From: a virus
IMG/VR virus record: IMGVR_UViG_3300027779_000019
Span: 1 to 64,000 of that record
Length of the DNA stretch: 64,000 bases
Reading direction: 5' to 3' (one strand)
Shown here: piece by piece, positions 21,316 through 42,436 of the stretch
Position numbering within the stretch: the first letter of the stretch is position 1
Layout of the letters: every line of letters starts with the position of its first letter
Program-made: the position numbers and the translations under genes
Notes under the pieces: generated by a model
Told to the model about the DNA's origin: nothing
The model's input: the letters and a program-made list of their open reading frames with translations, nothing else
Databases searched by the model: none

Positions 21316-22290
21316 ATGGCTACCACCACACTAATCGAAAAATTGTTCCCGAATATCGTCGGGCAGACAGCGGCAAAAGGAAAAATGCGATTCTATATCG
21401 AAGGGCATTCCGCAAGCAATATGATCCCCCACATGATGCTTGTCGCACCCAAAGGGTGCGGCAAGACCACTATGGCAGAGGCATTCGGACGGAACCTAGT
21501 TCAGAAAGGCGAGATCAAGCAGAAGCCTTGGTTGAGCATAAACTGTTCTTCGATTAAGAACTTGGAGCAATTCTTCGACCAGATAGTAATGCCTCACTTG
21601 ATGGATAAAGATATAACATTTATGATGGATGAATGTCACATGATTCCCAATGATGTTCAAAACGCGCTTCTGACGGTTCTTAACCCCAACCCATCGCATA
21701 CCAATACGTTTTCTTTTGGTGAGTTCGATTGGAATGTTGATTTTAAGCGCATTTCTTTTATCTTCGCAACTACCGAATCGCAGAAGATGGCATCACCGCT
21801 AATGGACAGATGCGAGCGCATCGACTTGGAGGAATACTCTAACGAGGAACTTGCAGAAATTGTCAAACTTAATACGAAGGTTGTATTTAAGCAGAATATC
21901 CTTGACGATATATCAACTACGCTTCGCGGCAATGCGCGGGGAGCGCAGAAAATGGCAACCAACATCGACATATACTGTAAGAAGAATGTTAAGAAGGTCT
22001 TCCAAAGGAATGATTGGAAACGGTTAACGAACGCTTTGGACATTATGCCGTTGGGACTGCACCGCATGGAGATGAGGGTTCTCCGTACCCTGTCAGAGCA
22101 ACCGTTCACTAGGTTGGGCAGTCTGGCGGCGAAGTTAGGGATGAACAGGACGGTCATCCAGCGCGACTTCGAGATGTTCCTTGCGAAGAATGGGCTTTTC
22201 GACGTTGATCCGCTTGGCCGACAACTGACCAAGAAGGGGCTGGAACTTCTTTCCACCTACGACAAGAACAAAGACAAGACTACTAAATGA
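21316..22290 (+). CDS. RuvB-like AAA+ ATPase
   Basis: 324 aa. Walker A APKGCGKTT (residues 44-52), Walker B TFMMDECH (101-108), sensor I FIFATTES, Arg finger DRCERI, and a C-terminal winged helix (GSLAAKLGMNRTVIQRDFEMFL). This is the RuvB domain order, where the hexamer drives branch migration of Holliday junctions. No RuvA is visible. It probably serves recombination-dependent phage replication. Coupled by ATGA to a short downstream gene. Confidence 0.8.
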   Translation: MATTTLIEKLFPNIVGQTAAKGKMRFYIEGHSASNMIPHMMLVAPKGCGKTTMAEAFGRNLVQKGEIKQKPWLSINCSSIKNLEQFFDQIVMPHLMDKDITFMMDECHMIPNDVQNALLTVLNPNPSHTNTFSFGEFDWNVDFKRISFIFATTESQKMASPLMDRCERIDLEEYSNEELAEIVKLNTKVVFKQNILDDISTTLRGNARGAQKMATNIDIYCKKNVKKVFQRNDWKRLTNALDIMPLGLHRMEMRVLRTLSEQPFTRLGSLAAKLGMNRTVIQRDFEMFLAKNGLFDVDPLGRQLTKKGLELLSTYDKNKDKTTK

Positions 22291-22476: not shown

Positions 22477-22505
22477 TTGACAAAGCGATAACTTTGTGCT
22501 ATATT
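22477..22505 (+). promoter_or_regulatory. promoter of the non-coding RNA
   Basis: TTGACA 22477-22482, a 17-bp spacer ending TTTGTGC, TATATT 22500-22505. Transcription should start near 22512. Confidence 0.75.
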
Positions 22506-22511
22506 AGTTTG

Positions 22512-22681
22512 TTGGTTGTTTGGTAGACCAAGAATACACGTAAGCTCACGCGTATGGTGTCGGGAGAGACTCTCGAACAAAGGTTATTTTTTAAATGACC
22601 TGCATGAAACAAAGCTGAGCTTACGCGACTCTCTCTCATAACTAGAGTCGGAGACCCCCGCAATGGGGGTCTCTTTTTTTT
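22512..22681 (+). ncRNA. structured antisense-type small RNA, about 170 nt
   Basis: Bounded by its own promoter and a terminator, with no convincing ORF. Stems I can pair: GTAAGCTCA 22540-22548 with 22616-22624 (closing stem); CGGGAG/CTCTCG inside it; AGGTTAT 22581-22587 with ATGACCT 22595-22601; and CGACTCT 22626-22632 with AGAGTCG 22644-22650. The last presents the loop CTCTCATAACT (22633-22643). That loop is the exact reverse complement of AGTTATGAGAG, the start-codon region of the minus-strand genes beginning at 31778, 32110 and 32393. I infer a trans-acting antisense RNA. A 14-codon ORF from 22553 inside it is not supported. Confidence 0.7.
22651..22681 (+). terminator. rho-independent terminator of the small RNA
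   Basis: GAGACCCCC pairs with GGGGGTCTC around GCAAT, followed by eight T residues. Textbook strength. Confidence 0.9.
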
Positions 22682-22877
22682 ATACATATGCGATCGCCAA
22701 ATAATCAAATAACACCAAATAATGAATGATATATTATCAAATAATTATATAGAAGGCAAATGAAAAATATACGAAATAATGCCAAATAAGAATACAAATA
22801 ATATAAATAACTATAATTGCAATAAACGCTATAAATACAACTCATTGATTACCAAGGACTTACATAGGCCGCCCTCC
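22682..22877. other. AT-rich non-coding spacer with a solo dyad arm
   Basis: No gene seen. It holds CCAAATAA-type repeats at 22690-22790 and a single copy of one dyad arm (TTGATTACCAAGGACTTAC) ending at 22863, just before the first complete double-dyad element. Confidence 0.5.
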
Positions 22878-22954
22878 TAAGTCGCTGACTACCAAGGACT
22901 TACGGCCGCCGGGTAGCCCGGGGTGCGTAAACCGTTGATGCTCAATAGTTTACG
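22878..22954. repeat. double-dyad element R1
   Basis: Two 25-bp imperfect palindromes, 22878-22902 (TAAGTCGCTG...GACTTA) and 22928-22952, flank a GC-rich centre containing CCGGGTAGCCCGG. Arm starts are 50 bp apart. A sigma70-like promoter follows 26 bp later. Confidence 0.75.
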
Positions 22955-22979
22955 ACAGCGAGAAAGTTTCATTTAGTGC

Positions 22980-23014: not shown

Positions 23015-23287
23015 ATGCGTTACATTAACAGCAACTGCACCTATACCGAAAACCACGTTGAGGGAACCTATACGTTCACAGGGCCGTGTCGTGTCACCGG
23101 AGACGACTATAGCGTCACTATACCGGGGCATGAACTTTGGGATCTAAACCAAGGTAAGCCGATCATGTGCTTGAAATCTCTTGATGCGAGCGACAGAGAG
23201 TTCGTCTTGAGTGGAACAAGCCCCAAAGGGTGGGAGAAGCTTTTTGGTGGAGTAGAAGAGATCGCGAAGTCATTAGTCGCGGAGTAG
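23015..23287 (+). CDS. conserved phage protein, 90 aa
   Basis: MRYINSNCTYTENHVEGTYT, GPCRVTGDDYSVTIPG and a C-terminal REFVLSGTSPKGWEKLFGG. The SGxSPxGWxxxFG ending is shared by small proteins of other large phages; no function known. Its last 10 bp are also the first bases of the tRNA gene. Confidence 0.65.
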   Translation: MRYINSNCTYTENHVEGTYTFTGPCRVTGDDYSVTIPGHELWDLNQGKPIMCLKSLDASDREFVLSGTSPKGWEKLFGGVEEIAKSLVAE

Positions 23288-23351
23288 CCAAGCGGTAAGG
23301 CAGGAGATTGCAAATCTCTTATCGTCGGTTCGATTCCGACCTCCGCGTCCA
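23278..23351 (+). tRNA. tRNA-Cys (anticodon GCA)
   Basis: Full cloverleaf: acceptor CGCGGAG with CTCCGCG, D stem GCC/GGC, anticodon stem GGAGA/TCTCT with loop TTGCAAA (anticodon GCA), T arm GTCGG-TTCGATT-CCGAC, discriminator T and an encoded CCA at 23349-23351. It overlaps the upstream CDS by 10 bp, so processing and translation of that transcript compete. No other tRNA was found in the window. Confidence 0.93.
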
Positions 23352-23390: not shown

Positions 23391-23400
23391 ATTTGAAGTT

Positions 23401-23955
23401 ATGAGGGAAAGAGAAGAGCCAAAAGGATTTATTAGCTGGGCAGACGCAGGGCCGCGTAAGGTTGTCGACGGATGTGAGGTAGCGCCGGATCGCGTGAAGG
23501 TTTACTTCAATCTTCAAAAAGACTGCCTTTCGGTAATTGATGCGGAGACTGGACTGCTATACTGTCATGCTCATCGGGTTGAGTTGCGTAATGCCAAGTT
23601 TCGGGTACAGCCAGCAGGTCGGGAGCGAGTCATTCGGGAGAAGCGTAAGAACGTCCACGCTTACATTATCGGTGACTGCCATGACATTGGTGACGTTTCC
23701 AAGGAACGTTTTCGCTTGGTTGATAATGAGTTGTTCGAGAAGTACAGCATCTGTGATTGCGGTGACAAACCATACGACTACTGTGAGGAGTGCGTACCGG
23801 AATCAAGTGATGAGTTTCGCGGAGGGTGTTACAATCCTTATAAGTATAAGACTTTCGTAGACGATGTAGAGAAGACGCCGATCCTCAAGTCAGACAGGGT
23901 GATCGTCAGAGACAAGACGGCGATAGGGTCACATTATAATATATTTTATGTTTGA
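23401..23955 (+). CDS. conserved phage protein with Cys-rich C-terminus
   Basis: 184 aa. NLQKDCLSVIDAETGLLYCHAHRVELRNAKFRVQPAGRERVIREKRKNVHAYIIG matches a phage family with a GRxRVxxExRKNVHA core and no known function. CDCGDKPYDYCEEC adds a possible zinc site. The start ATGAGGG follows AGTT, the shared early-start context. Overlaps the next gene by 8 bp. Confidence 0.65.
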   Translation: MREREEPKGFISWADAGPRKVVDGCEVAPDRVKVYFNLQKDCLSVIDAETGLLYCHAHRVELRNAKFRVQPAGRERVIREKRKNVHAYIIGDCHDIGDVSKERFRLVDNELFEKYSICDCGDKPYDYCEECVPESSDEFRGGCYNPYKYKTFVDDVEKTPILKSDRVIVRDKTAIGSHYNIFYV

Positions 23956-28427: not shown

Positions 28428-28841
28428 TTAGTTATCCGGCCGGTTGGCTTCCATGTCGTGAGCAGAGGCAACACGGTAGCCAATCTCGCTTCTTGGGGGA
28501 AGCAGAGAGAACGAAGCGTTATAGTCAATTGACTCCCAAGCCTCTTGGGCAAGTTTCGCAACGTGTGGGTATACGCCGCCTCTAATGCCTTTGAAGGCGT
28601 CACAGCTTTCATTTAGCACACGCATCAACGTGCGGGAAAAGACGGCTTGTTTCAATCGCTTGGAAGTAGACCAAAACCAAAAGAAGTTTTCGCCAATCCA
28701 ATTTGGTTCATCGCAAGCGGCCGCGCCGTGATTATGCCAACCAAAAAACTCATACTTTAGAGCTTGATTGTCGCCGTTGCCCATTATACCAACGGCCCAA
28801 CTAGAGCCGTTACGCTGCACAATAATATTACTGTTTTGCAT
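28428..28841 (-). CDS. hypothetical protein, 137 aa
   Basis: MQNSNIIVQRNGSSWAVGIM, with an aromatic middle (NWIGENFFWFWSTSKR). No family recognised. Downstream of the small basic gene at 28953 with a 14-bp overlap, so they share a transcript. Confidence 0.6.
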   Translation of the reverse strand: MQNSNIIVQRNGSSWAVGIMGNGDNQALKYEFFGWHNHGAAACDEPNWIGENFFWFWSTSKRLKQAVFSRTLMRVLNESCDAFKGIRGGVYPHVAKLAQEAWESIDYNASFSLLPPRSEIGYRVASAHDMEANRPDN

Positions 28842-28953
28842 TTTTCTTTTTCCTTGAATAAGAGCCTTTGCCCTTCTCGGTTTTATGTGTTCGTGTTCCC
28901 GTATTAAAAGGAACCACCTTTCTAGGTTTAGAAATTTTCTTCTTCTCTCTCAT
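28828..28953 (-). CDS. small basic protein, 41 aa
   Basis: MREKKKISKPRKVVPFNTGT, tail KGKGSYSRKKKNAKQ. The start ATGAGAGAG lies 6 nt after the -10 box, so the mRNA should be leaderless, and it matches the small-RNA loop over TCTCTCTCAT. Resembles tiny Lys-rich phage proteins with a KxGKGSYxRKKK ending. Confidence 0.6.
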   Translation of the reverse strand: MREKKKISKPRKVVPFNTGTRTHKTEKGKGSYSRKKKNAKQ

Positions 28954-29587: not shown

Positions 29588-29881
29588 TCACAGCATCTCA
29601 CAGCCTCCGCCGTAATCCTCATCCGTGCCCCAGCCCGCACTAGCGAGCGCATCCCCGTCCGCTTCCGCGTCCGAGTTGAAACCGTCCCAATCCTCGCCTG
29701 CGGCGTCATCGATAGACCACACCACCTCGCGAGAATTGTCGGTATGATGCTCGATAACGTCCTCGCCCACCTGATCGGCCAACCTAATGGCCGCGTTCAA
29801 TGCTGTGTGATCGGCATCACCCACGTTCTGCGTGAAACTCTGCACTACACCCTCTCCATCAACAACTGAGTATTTCCTCAT
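29588..29881 (-). CDS. acidic hypothetical protein, 97 aa
   Basis: MRKYSVVDGEGVVQSFTQNV; the second half is very acidic and Gly-rich (WDGFNSDAEADGDALASAGW). Start fixed by the promoter: ATGAGGAAA after TGTT. Higher GC than its neighbours. Confidence 0.6.
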   Translation of the reverse strand: MRKYSVVDGEGVVQSFTQNVGDADHTALNAAIRLADQVGEDVIEHHTDNSREVVWSIDDAAGEDWDGFNSDAEADGDALASAGWGTDEDYGGGCEML

Positions 29882-29891
29882 AACAGAAAAC

Positions 29892-31535: not shown

Positions 31536-31778
31536 TTAAGCTAAAAGGGTGACAGTTGCGTTAGAGTTAAGAGCGTGGACAGTCGGTTCTTTTGGTTCGT
31601 CATCGAATCCGCAATGATTGCCAAGCGCGTGTTTTATTATAGCCCAAAGACTTGGGACTGGCCCGAACTGCTCAAGTGTTTTGTCGCCTCGCTTAACGGT
31701 AAGAGTCCAAGCGACTTTGCCGCTTTCTTCGCATTCGAAGATGTCTACTGTTTTTGTCGGATGGTTTATATCTCTCAT
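31536..31778 (-). CDS. hypothetical protein with MRD start, 80 aa
   Basis: MRDINHPTKTVDIFECEESG, then WTLTVKRGDKTLEQFGPVPS. First gene of the operon ending at 30169. ATGAGAGAT is preceded by AGTT, identical to two neighbouring genes although the proteins are unrelated. Confidence 0.6.
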   Translation of the reverse strand: MRDINHPTKTVDIFECEESGKVAWTLTVKRGDKTLEQFGPVPSLWAIIKHALGNHCGFDDEPKEPTVHALNSNATVTLLA

Positions 31779-31788
31779 AACTTGTAAT

Positions 31789-31817: not shown

Positions 31818-32110
31818 GCACTATCTTTGCAAATTTCACATTCGCATTCTTGTGCTTTTATAGCTTCTTCGTTCCAGTCATCGCAAAATGTGGTAAGTTC
31901 CTTAACTTCCTTTTTCGTTTTCAGTCCACGCTTGAATTGTTCCCAAGTGGGGCGTTGCGCTTCGGGAATTGCTTCCCAGCCTTTCATCAATTCGGCACGA
32001 CGAGCCTGTTCCTCCGCCAACCACGGCAGAACGCTATTTGCTGACATATCGCCACCCTTTTCCGCTCTCCTGCGGATTCCTTCTGTTATTGCTCTTGAAT
32101 TATCTCTCAT
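31814..32110 (-). CDS. hypothetical protein with MRD start, 98 aa
   Basis: MRDNSRAITEGIRRRAEKGG; helical with a C-terminal CECEICKD cluster (possible metal site). The start is AGTT-ATGAGAGATA. No family recognised. Its stop overlaps the -35 box of the next unit. Confidence 0.6.
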   Translation of the reverse strand: MRDNSRAITEGIRRRAEKGGDMSANSVLPWLAEEQARRAELMKGWEAIPEAQRPTWEQFKRGLKTKKEVKELTTFCDDWNEEAIKAQECECEICKDSA

Positions 32111-32120
32111 AACTGGGAAT

Positions 32121-32165: not shown

Positions 32166-32393
32166 TTAAGCCTCGATTCCCGCTTTGTCTTCGATCCATT
32201 CGAGATCTTCGCTATTCTCGATTTCGGTTAGCCTGTTCTGGACGTCGGCGAGTTTCTCTTCCCAATGCTCTATGCGGATTTGAATCGCTTCCTTCCCAAT
32301 GAGGTTAGTCTGCGCTAATATTTGCAACGCTCCACGCACTTCGGCGATAGCAATGCCTTCGTTCCTCAAACTCTTCTGTGTCGTATCTCTCAT
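32166..32393 (-). CDS. coiled-coil protein with MRD start, 75 aa
   Basis: MRDTTQKSLRNEGIAIAEVR, then a heptad-rich helix (WEEKLADVQNRLTEIENSED). Start AGTT-ATGAGAGATA, third exact match to the small-RNA loop. Confidence 0.6.
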   Translation of the reverse strand: MRDTTQKSLRNEGIAIAEVRGALQILAQTNLIGKEAIQIRIEHWEEKLADVQNRLTEIENSEDLEWIEDKAGIEA

Positions 32394-32403
32394 AACTGCA
32401 AAG

Positions 32404-33321: not shown

Positions 33322-33522
33322 TTATTCGCACTCGTGGCACTGGTAGTTTTCCAAGCCGTGATCCCATTGGCCAACTTCTTCTAGGCTGATCACTACTTCC
33401 GCACCGCATCCGCAGCACACAACCTCATGTCCATCCACGGTGTTGTTGTCGTCGTTCCGATCCATCTCGTTGTTCATTTCGTTATTCATCTTATTCATTT
33501 CGTTGCTCTTTCTCTCACTCAC
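33322..33522 (-). CDS. small zinc-ribbon protein, possible leaderless GTG start
   Basis: From GTG 33522 the protein starts VSERKSNEMNKMNNEMNNEM; the ATG at 33498 is the conventional alternative. The C-terminal CCGCGAEV...YQCHECE provides CxC/CxxC metal ligands. The predicted transcript starts one base before the GTG. Confidence 0.55.
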   Translation of the reverse strand: MSERKSNEMNKMNNEMNNEMDRNDDNNTVDGHEVVCCGCGAEVVISLEEVGQWDHGLENYQCHECE

Positions 33523-33529
33523 TTGTTAT

Positions 33530-33561: not shown

Positions 33562-33750
33562 TTATTTTGGATTATTTCCACAATATCCAGCCAGTTGATT
33601 GGCTTGGTGCTTGGGGTCATTGTTCACCGTGTAGGTGTTACCGTTCAAGGTGAAGGTGTCACGCTTGGCCTCACGGCGGCGACGTTGCTCCAAGTGTCTG
33701 CGGATCTCTGATATTGTCATTTGATTGTTCATTGTCTTTCTCTCACTCAC
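33562..33750 (-). CDS. small basic protein, GTG or ATG start
   Basis: From GTG 33750 it starts VSERKTMNNQMTISEIRRHL; from ATG 33732 it has 56 aa. Arg-rich helix, then FTLNGNTYTVNNDPKHQANQ. No family recognised. The first codons are the AGTGAGTGAGAG leader read in frame. Confidence 0.5.
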   Translation of the reverse strand: MSERKTMNNQMTISEIRRHLEQRRRREAKRDTFTLNGNTYTVNNDPKHQANQLAGYCGNNPK

Positions 33751-33757
33751 TGGGTAT

Positions 33758-34069: not shown

Positions 34070-34113
34070 ATTCCTAGTGAGTGAGGGGAGACCCTCCAAC
34101 AGAAAGACAGATT

Positions 34114-34302: not shown

Positions 34303-34309
34303 TTATCCA

Positions 34310-34582
34310 GTGAGTGAGAGAAACAGTAAGATGAAAAACAAAATAAAATTCCTAAACGTAGTGTTCAACGTCAAGCGCAACGCCGCTTACCAAGGCAACC
34401 ACGAGCTTGCCAGAACCGATAGAATCCACACGACCTTCCCGCTCGGCACAACCGAGGAGGAAATGATCAGCGAGTTTCACTCGGAGCTAGTCAACATCGA
34501 CATTAACGGTAAGACTTGGCTAAAGGGTGAAATGATTCAGGTCACCAGCATTGATAATTGTTTCGAAGATTCAACTAACTAA
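34310..34582 (+). CDS. small protein, GTG (leaderless) or ATG start
   Basis: GTG 34310 gives VSERNSKMKNKIKFLNVVFN; ATG 34331 is the conventional option. DRIHTTFPLGTTEEEMISEF suggests a small alpha/beta domain. Third ORF in which the leader motif is in frame as VSER. Confidence 0.55.
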   Translation: MSERNSKMKNKIKFLNVVFNVKRNAAYQGNHELARTDRIHTTFPLGTTEEEMISEFHSELVNIDINGKTWLKGEMIQVTSIDNCFEDSTN

Positions 34583-40508: not shown

Positions 40509-41489
40509 CTACCATTGATGATTCCAGTACCATCCCCATGAATCTCTTCTGCCGTATCGAACATAAGAGTCTCGCGCCTCTTCTGGTCCCGCATTAGTTT
40601 TGCGCATTTGTCTTGATAGCCCATGAACCCAAGGAAACCATGTATATTTCTGGGTCTTGAAGTTTTCTATTTTGGTGGTGGACCTATCTTTTAACCATTT
40701 TACATCTACGCTGCCATATGCCCTTCTTATCCCGTACTTGAAATTAGAACCGTCAATGTAATATTTACCTTGCGCAGTTTTTGTCCGCTCGTCCAGCCAT
40801 CTTTTGGTTTCGACATGACCATCCGCGAAAGCTAGCGCTGTTCCATCAATGTGGTACTTACCCGGAACGTCCATGTCGTATACTTTATGCGTAGGTCCTC
40901 CTTCATTCATTACTACCCGAAAGCAGCCAGCATTTATAAATTCAAATGGCATTTCTATAAAAGTAAAAATATTAGAAGGTTTTTCTATGTCGGCTTGTTT
41001 ATGGTATATTTTCCATTCTTTATCATTTTCTACTGGCCAGCCAGCCCACCCTCCTACGTGGATATTCATGCTATAGCTCCTATGACGCGGGAAGATCTGC
41101 CTTAACTCACCGGCCTTGTTTGTTATTCTGAGCATGTCCTTGTCTGCTGGGCATTTAAATACTCCAACAGATTTGCCCACGTAAGGAAAAAGGGGAGTAC
41201 TTTCTAGAAATTGTGCTTTATTTAGATATCGAGAAAGATTTAAACTTCCCGGTGCCCATGTATACTTCGAACATTTTTCATACTTCCAAGAACTTGAATA
41301 TAATATTTTGTCACCGTGGTCATCACTAAATATTGTGTGAGCCATTTGTAATTGTTTCTGATTATTTATGCAGGCTACTCTTTGTGCGATTGATTTCGCT
41401 TTGTTGATCGCAGGGAGAAGAAGGGCAACTAAGAGCGCAATGATCCCAATAACAACGAGCAACTCGACTAAAGTAAATCCTTTTTTCAT
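40509..41489 (-). CDS. prepilin-type (pseudopilin) protein 1
   Basis: 326 aa. [20 protein letters not shown] is a class III prepilin signal (cleaved after KKG, N-methylated Phe, Glu+5) followed by the hydrophobic pilin helix. The globular part carries [20 protein letters not shown] and the C-terminal [16 protein letters not shown], the H/DGHVE-type motif of the many pseudopilin-like proteins of Planctomycetota, Verrucomicrobiota and Lentisphaerota. It ends WGWYWNHQW. Paralogue of the next gene upstream (ATGA overlap). Maturation would need the host prepilin peptidase. Confidence 0.85.
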
Positions 41490-42436
41490 CAATAAGGGTT
41501 CCAAGTTGGATGGCTACCCCAACTGTCATTCCAATACCAACCCCACGAAGCGGACACCTTACCATCTATAGTGCGGTGATTCCCGTCCCTATTGTATCTA
41601 CCTATACCTCCCATAACTCCATACCATCTATGATTGTTGGGGTCTGGGACAATTGCTCTTGCCCTTAGCCATGCAAGATCGCGATTATTTGGACTTACTA
41701 TTTTATCCGTATTAGTCGTTGGATCTGTCGCATCAGATGATATATTTATTGTGTCTTGTTCAAGCCATCGTTTAAATTCGACGTGCGCGTCCACGAAAGA
41801 AACAACAGAGCCGTTGTTGTGATAAACCCCGGGCCAGTCTTGTGAGAAAAAGCTCTCACCACCTTTAAGTGTTGGCGCTACTCTAAAGTTTCCAGCATTA
41901 ATAGATTGAGGTGGCATTTCAATAAAAGTAAATAACAGGCTCGAATTATTTACATCGCCATATTCGTGATGAACTTTGTACTGGCTATCTGATAACCAAG
42001 GCCACCCCGACCAACCACCGACAAAGAGATTTACGCTATAGGAACGTGGCCTATTTATAGTCTTCGCATTAACCGTAACAGTGGATCTATCTCCGGGGCA
42101 ATGATATATGCCCATACCCGCATAAGGCTTTAAGGGAGAAAAGAAGAGAGGCCTATCGGTTTGACCCCATGTACCGTTACCACTCATACTGTCAGCAACC
42201 CATGCCCACATACCGGTCGGCTCTCCAGCCCAAGCTGAGGCGTAAGGGAACCTATTTTCGTGATCCCCTGCGAACTCCGAGTAAGCGAGATTAAGTTGGC
42301 GTTGGTTATTTATGCACGCGGCTCGCCACCCTGTCTGTTTAGCGGAACTTAATGAAGGGAGTAAAAGGGCCGCTAATATCGCAATGATGGCTATCACCAC
42401 CAGAAGCTCAATTAAAGTAAACCCTTTTCCTTTCAT
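41489..42436 (-). CDS. prepilin-type (pseudopilin) protein 2
   Basis: 315 aa. [20 protein letters not shown], the conserved [36 protein letters not shown] and [14 protein letters not shown] mirror pseudopilin 1, and both end in a WGWYWN motif. Two tandem paralogues in a phage late block suggest assembly of a host-type pseudopilus or filament component, a decoy, or a competitor of host pili. Overlaps the upstream MscS-like gene (ATGA). Confidence 0.85.

Follow-up and report, generated by a model that had tools for sequence, protein, structure and literature searches.

Introduction

Among phage antisense RNAs, lambda OOP, P22 sar and P1/P4 C4 and their like are mostly cis-antisense or directed at one operon. 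The RNA described here has in common with them that it is phage-encoded and predicted to pair with phage mRNA, whereas in our case one short word fits a dispersed regulon. Trans-encoded base-pairing small RNAs of bacteria and phages, which block ribosome binding (phage review, PMC12197685), have a promoter and terminator of their own, as is predicted for it, and share with it a loop seed antisense to several translation starts. Our RNA differs in that its predicted targets are the extreme 5' tags of near-leaderless early phage mRNAs, that its seed recurs before terminators on unrelated scaffolds and that it bears a conserved three-way-junction domain. Among 3'-UTR-derived small RNAs, CisR (PMC13250501) is comparable with what is seen in relatives of our phage, where the complement of the tag (anti-tag) likewise sits in a 3' UTR directly before the terminator; in contrast, our unit is predicted to be served by a separate promoter and does not follow on from a gene. 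Furthermore, intergenic phage ribozymes of the hammerhead and permuted types (PMC10085705) resemble the core of the RNA in size (~65-85 nt), multi-stem junction, conserved junction strands and intergenic position, while the core is without CUGANGA and GAAA.

In the present work we analysed a small RNA unit at positions 22477-22681 of a 64,000-base stretch of viral DNA (the window). The RNA resembles a trans-acting antisense small RNA, of which the tag/anti-tag design would represent a novel form. Neither the fold nor a tag circuit of this kind was found described in the open-access papers searched, whose coverage is incomplete.

Methods

Tagged phages were identified by scanning for a promoter followed by AGTTATGAG, the 5' tag being GTTATGAG or AGTGAGTGAG. 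Promoters and transcription starts are consensus calls. For an unbiased count, terminators from 12 tagged phages were deduplicated to 91, and all 8-mers were enumerated in the 45 nt preceding each. The covariance model of the core was built from five copies and then from fourteen; its E-values are rough, and the contigs are metagenomic. IMG/VR was searched with two exact patterns drawn from the conserved strands, and either one matched at least 120 contigs. A genome-wide covariance-model screen missed copies found by cmsearch, and its blanks were not counted as absence.

Layout of the small RNA unit

The window comprises bases 1-64000 of a 77,679-base IMG/VR virus record and carries a tailed-phage gene set (RIIA/RIIB homologues, terminase, portal, PhoH and endolysin). 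BLASTN against known phages returned no close GenBank phage for the window; its terminase is common to many metagenomic viral contigs, two of them at 100% amino-acid identity. The source of the small RNA unit is a marine phage.

The unit lies on the plus strand, directly downstream of a clamp-loader ATPase gene (21316-22290, plus strand), which is a syntenic marker in relatives. Its promoter (22477-22505) consists of TTGACA, a 17-nt spacer, TG and TATATT, scoring 11/12 in the consensus scan, and transcription is predicted to start near 22512. The predicted 170-nt RNA folds at -66 kcal/mol (z = -6.1) into, in order, a 5' hairpin (22512-22531, minimum-energy fold), a branched middle, the hairpin P4 and a Rho-independent terminator with T tract (22651-22681, scan and fold). 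The branched middle is the three-way-junction core of a new RNA family (22539-22625), delimited by covariance models R1/R2, phage homologues and covariation. It is built of P1 (22539-22548 with 22616-22625), an AUGGUG strand (22554-22559), P2 with a GAGAC loop (22560-22576), an AC strand (22577-22578), P3 (22581-22601) and a AUGAAACA strand (22604-22611). The adjoining P4 (22626-22650), CGACTCT-CTCTCATAACT-AGAGTCG, displays the antisense loop, which has a probability of 0.99 of being unpaired in the fold. This loop counts 11 nt, CUCUCAUAACU, at 22633-22643; together with position 22632 the complement reaches 12 nt, and pattern search identified 22632-22643 as the exact anti-tag of AGTTATGAGAGA.

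The longest sense ORF of the unit is a 41-aa TTG ORF, and promoter and terminator were both called by consensus. The proposal, made from the sequence before this analysis, of a promoter-to-terminator unit devoid of a convincing ORF was borne out, at the level of consensus calls, by the promoter match, the terminator stem and the ORF list. The loop was also considered as a gene start on the minus strand, where an ORF beginning MRES is open, but the terminator occupies the expected promoter site and this candidate was rejected.

On the 3' side of the small RNA, in the AT-rich region, there are conserved noncoding repeats of TACCAAGGACTTAC with GC-rich palindromes (22847-22975), found also at L110:5700-5780 and L207:11390-11470; these may be a replication origin. 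A tRNA-Cys gene (23278-23351) is flanked by early genes.

Complementarity of the loop to early gene starts

Pattern search located AGTTATGAGAG at exactly four places in the window, namely the loop and the gene starts 31778, 32110 and 32393; one mismatch being allowed, six occurrences were counted against 1.2 expected. The antisense match of the 11-nt loop to these three starts, which had been noticed in the sequence-only reading, is exact and extends to 12 nt. The corresponding 5' tags, AGTTATGAGAGA, are on the minus strand at 31771-31782 (gene 31778-31536, ~10 nt past its -10 box), 32103-32114 (gene 32110-31814) and 32386-32397 (gene 32393-32166). Related tags are AGTTATGAGGGA at 23397-23408 (plus strand; gene 23401, L5 gp82-like) and TGTTATGAGGAA at 29874-29885 (minus strand; gene 29881), the latter start (TGTTATGAGGA) being a further tagged one absent from that reading. 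A second tag class, AGTGAGTGAGAG, was found at 33512-33523 and 33740-33751 (minus strand; genes 33522 and 33750) and at 34309-34320 (plus strand; gene 34310), with a variant, AGTGAGTGAGGG, at 34076-34087 (plus strand; gene near 34081). Both start classes have TGAGAG/TGAGGG in common. As for the lesser matches claimed previously, 23401 has a promoter-linked tag, whereas 33309 lacks a promoter of this type and is preceded by an SD-like leader, and 28953 has only ATGAGAGA in common.

Transcription starts about 7 nt past the -10 hexamer. Extended -10 promoters of TTGAC(N)..TGnTAnnnT type are located ~10 nt before starts 31778, 32110, 32393 and 23401, a spacing by which the predicted 5' end of the mRNA falls within the match; under the 7-nt rule the mRNAs are predicted to start AGUUAUGAGAG, with leaders of 0-4 nt. 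Many genes have the start codon ~10 nt past the -10 hexamer, with starts predicted from consensus, and the suggestion that the targets are leaderless agrees with the leaders that the promoters predict at tagged starts. Since the GTT before the ATG is also shared, the tag is not explained by coding alone.

Two further gene observations in the window should be added. ArfA is a ribosome-rescue factor, and an ArfA-like 41-aa near-leaderless gene (28828-28953, minus strand; Pfam E 2.4e-5, just under the cut-off) is conserved in G042, G049, G090, G094, G098 and G099. At 40509-42436 (minus strand) two proteins are encoded whose N-termini are of the type IV pseudopilin kind, unusual for a phage; these proteins and the Verrucomicrobia matches of the RNA family are weak hints at a Verrucomicrobia-like host.

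Calculated pairing was far stronger with promoter-linked starts than with others: 59% of promoter-linked starts gave duplexes with the loop of -10 kcal/mol or stronger, whereas the share was 4.5% for other starts and 1.6% for random windows, and median energies were -14 kcal/mol with promoter-linked and -3.2 with other starts. The mean duplex energy of the window RNA with the tags was matched by 2 of 200 shuffles. The loop offers an accessible seed whose complementarity to several target starts exceeds what chance would give. The earlier judgement that the match was unlikely by chance is correct, but the case is less extreme than it appears: when the RNA was dinucleotide-shuffled 3000 times, 5 of the shuffled sequences contained a 12-nt complement to one or other of 17 starts of this kind. 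For this reason the match is significant but not overwhelming, and comparison with relatives is the better test.

Recurrence of the anti-tag in related phages

The promoter and AGTTATGAG scan yielded about ten more phage contigs, with one to ten tag-initiated genes each. The four most enriched 8-mers before the 91 terminators of the 12 tagged phages were CCTCATAA, TCATAACA, CATAACAC and CTCATAAC. The last of these preceded 9 of the 91 against 0.31 expected, corresponding to about five distinct loci as orthologous terminators are not independent, and 1 of 216 terminators in other fetched phage sequence (Fisher p ~1e-4). A fortuitous complementarity between a CT-rich RNA and AG-rich starts could be argued from the simple composition of both partners and from the shuffles that reach 12 nt; the recurrence of the anti-tag before terminators of related phages speaks against it, and we regard this explanation as disfavoured and extremely unlikely.

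The sense word, GTTATGAG, preceded none of the 91 tagged-phage terminators. This bears on the notion that GTTATGAG is a DNA operator, bound by a phage regulator at early promoters and near terminators, with the RNA complement as a by-product. In all of these phages the tag belongs to a single promoter class and spans roughly +1 to +12, which would suit an operator. The strictly antisense orientation before terminators (9 vs 0) disfavours it, and so does the placement of the anti-tag in loops of different stems and, in the window RNA, at the terminator and not at the promoter; we consider the operator highly improbable.

The same loop is carried by three unrelated stems, GACUCU..AGAGUC in the window, GUAGU..ACUAC in G098 and G094, and GGCAAC..GUUGC in G092 and G095. 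The same word appears in loops on different stems and in 3' UTRs, so that selection seems to act on the pairing and not on the scaffold. Moreover, the anti-tag following the clamp loader in the window, G098 and G094 occupies the same locus, the order in the latter two being clamp loader, small ORF, anti-tag hairpin and terminator. G049 has mostly AGTGAGTGAG starts, and its RNA at the clamp-loader locus contains UUCAUUCACU, able to form 10 bp, two of them G-U, with AGUGAGUGAG; only 1 of 200 shuffles equalled the mean duplex energy. The syntenic RNA of G042 showed no significant tag complement (41 of 200 shuffles), although both tag classes are kept in this phage; CTCATAACA stands before a terminator-like structure elsewhere in it (10280-).

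Thus, complementarity of seed and targets recurs in tagged phages and the altered seed of G049 fits its own tags, with G042 as the exception. The refuting condition named in the earlier reading, relatives with the loop but no such starts or the reverse, gave a mixed outcome: G042 has the tags with no significant anti-tag in its syntenic RNA, yet carries CTCATAACA elsewhere. The antisense interpretation itself gains from the enrichment before terminators, the unrelated stems and the shared locus, while the syntenic RNA of G042 counts against it. The pairing is, as we see it, supported by comparison.

In several relatives the anti-tags sit in mRNA 3' UTRs and not in stand-alone RNAs, and for these pairing in cis is possible: the 3' anti-tag might form a panhandle with the 5' tag of the same transcript, serving stability or self-limited translation, of which the window RNA would be a detached derivative. 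The strand that bears the tagged starts in G098 and G092 also bears the anti-tag terminators, and the two could bound one transcript; in relatives cis pairing is a live rival. The window unit, on the other hand, has a predicted promoter of its own and a 5' end without the tag, and its main targets are 9 kb away. As unit and main targets are on opposite strands, cis pairing is not live for the window, and as a general account we hold it to be doubtful. In G092 and G095 some anti-tags coincide in part with a stop codon (TCA TAA), and coding may be a contributing factor there.

More distant relatives (L091-L098, L115 and L139) have long series of near-leaderless genes with ATGAAA starts and strict TTGACA-N14-TGTGnTATATTAT-like promoters; these series clearly are an early regulon.

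Proposed mode of action

We favour, with moderate confidence, an antisense RNA joined to a new fold, which would keep ribosomes off a set of co-regulated, near-leaderless early mRNAs. The unit would encode a small RNA of the phage, ~165 nt long, in which two parts do the work. The P4 loop would be antisense to the first 8-12 nt of early, almost leaderless mRNAs starting (N)GUUAUGAGAG; pairing in trans would cover the start codon and the 5' end and stop the ribosome from entering, so that the regulon would presumably be repressed rather than activated, and in this way damped or timed. The core probably gives the small RNA stability or a dock for protein. Loop and tag, matching as they do, probably constitute a phage control circuit of RNA against RNA.

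If this is true, an early regulon is coordinated through a common mRNA 5' tag and an antisense RNA to that tag, a simple circuit open to reporter testing. A broader reading, on which we are evenly divided, combines a very widespread undescribed viral three-way-junction RNA, possibly catalytic or protein-binding, with a 5'-tag/3'-anti-tag circuit by which early transcripts, through their RNA ends, silence or mark one another.

A three-way-junction RNA family

The branched middle of the window RNA is shared with RNAs downstream of the clamp loader in the relatives G042 and G049, and also in G017 and G019, which are more distantly related. With the covariance model, copies were found in about ten phages having this clamp loader, the window copy scoring 61-75 bits; a further 1.37 Mb of fetched viral sequence contained no copy at E up to 1. 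Among fourteen sequences, 88% of cells pair and 22 of 25 pairs change on both sides; this covariation score was reached by none of 500 shuffles and was lost on sliding, and 75 distinct sequences gave the same picture. The search of related phages by covariance, proposed earlier as a check, thus recovered the fold with very strong covariation. Copies consist of P1; AAUAGAG or (C)AUGGUG; P2 of 6 bp with a GAGAN loop; AC; P3; UUGAACA or AUGAAACA; and P1', and it is by these stems, junction strands and covariation that we recognise the family.

Of the IMG/VR loci read, the model fits 153 of 160 (80/80 and 73/80 for the two patterns). Nine of twelve matches in bacterial genomes also fit, six of the nine in Verrucomicrobia records; in one of these, AH-558-L06, the copy adjoins an integrase gene. 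In an Ayaqvirus (AP013544.1) the copy (L634:3994-4074) lies 9 nt before a T7-like RNA polymerase gene. The core occurs, beside the window, in Verrucomicrobia-associated phages or prophages and in an Ayaqvirus, and such phages are included in the well over a hundred viral contigs that carry this structured RNA, which has no Rfam entry.

Against Rfam 15, only a tRNA reached gathering in the window, the best hit in the RNA region being below gathering at E 0.17. In the loci with core copies nothing fell on the core at E up to 1; elsewhere in them neighbouring tRNAs and weak sub-threshold matches were obtained. No Rfam family, tmRNA, 6S, riboswitches and ribozymes included, could be assigned by covariance-model match in gathering or permissive mode. 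Hammerhead and permuted hammerhead were rejected by their junction strands, CUGANGA and GAAA as against AAUAGAG or AUGGUG, AC, and UUGAACA or AUGAAACA. The three-way-junction family is new relative to Rfam 15 and the open-access papers searched. The first statement that no described family was recognised holds in Rfam 15, but the widespread core had been missed. An exact search for the P4 arm in IMG/VR gave one match, in unrelated sequence and apparently by chance.

Copies are mostly intergenic and usually directly 3' of a same-strand ORF, often within 15 nt; some are tandem, and one directly follows a consensus promoter (L158). A role in mRNA ends, in processing or in protein binding, or as a ribozyme, would all be possible for such an element. 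A P4-like hairpin is absent from most other family members, hence core and P4 need not work together. One may accordingly ask whether the core alone is functional, as mRNA-end stabiliser, processing element, protein-binding element or ribozyme, and the loop match incidental: it is the widely conserved part, found in many phages, mostly intergenic and directly after an ORF, and most members lack P4. The anti-tag is, however, enriched in related phages without the core, also at the same locus, and we judge this alternative to the antisense RNA improbable.

A glutamine riboswitch near some clamp loaders was considered and rejected, as Rfam gave only manA RNAs elsewhere in the loci; manA RNA (RF01745) is present in the clamp-loader phages L128, L133, L134, L136, L137 and L143. 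Copies of the core directly before tRNA genes (L458:1555-1633, L426:142-221 and L502:536-616) might hint at RNA processing.
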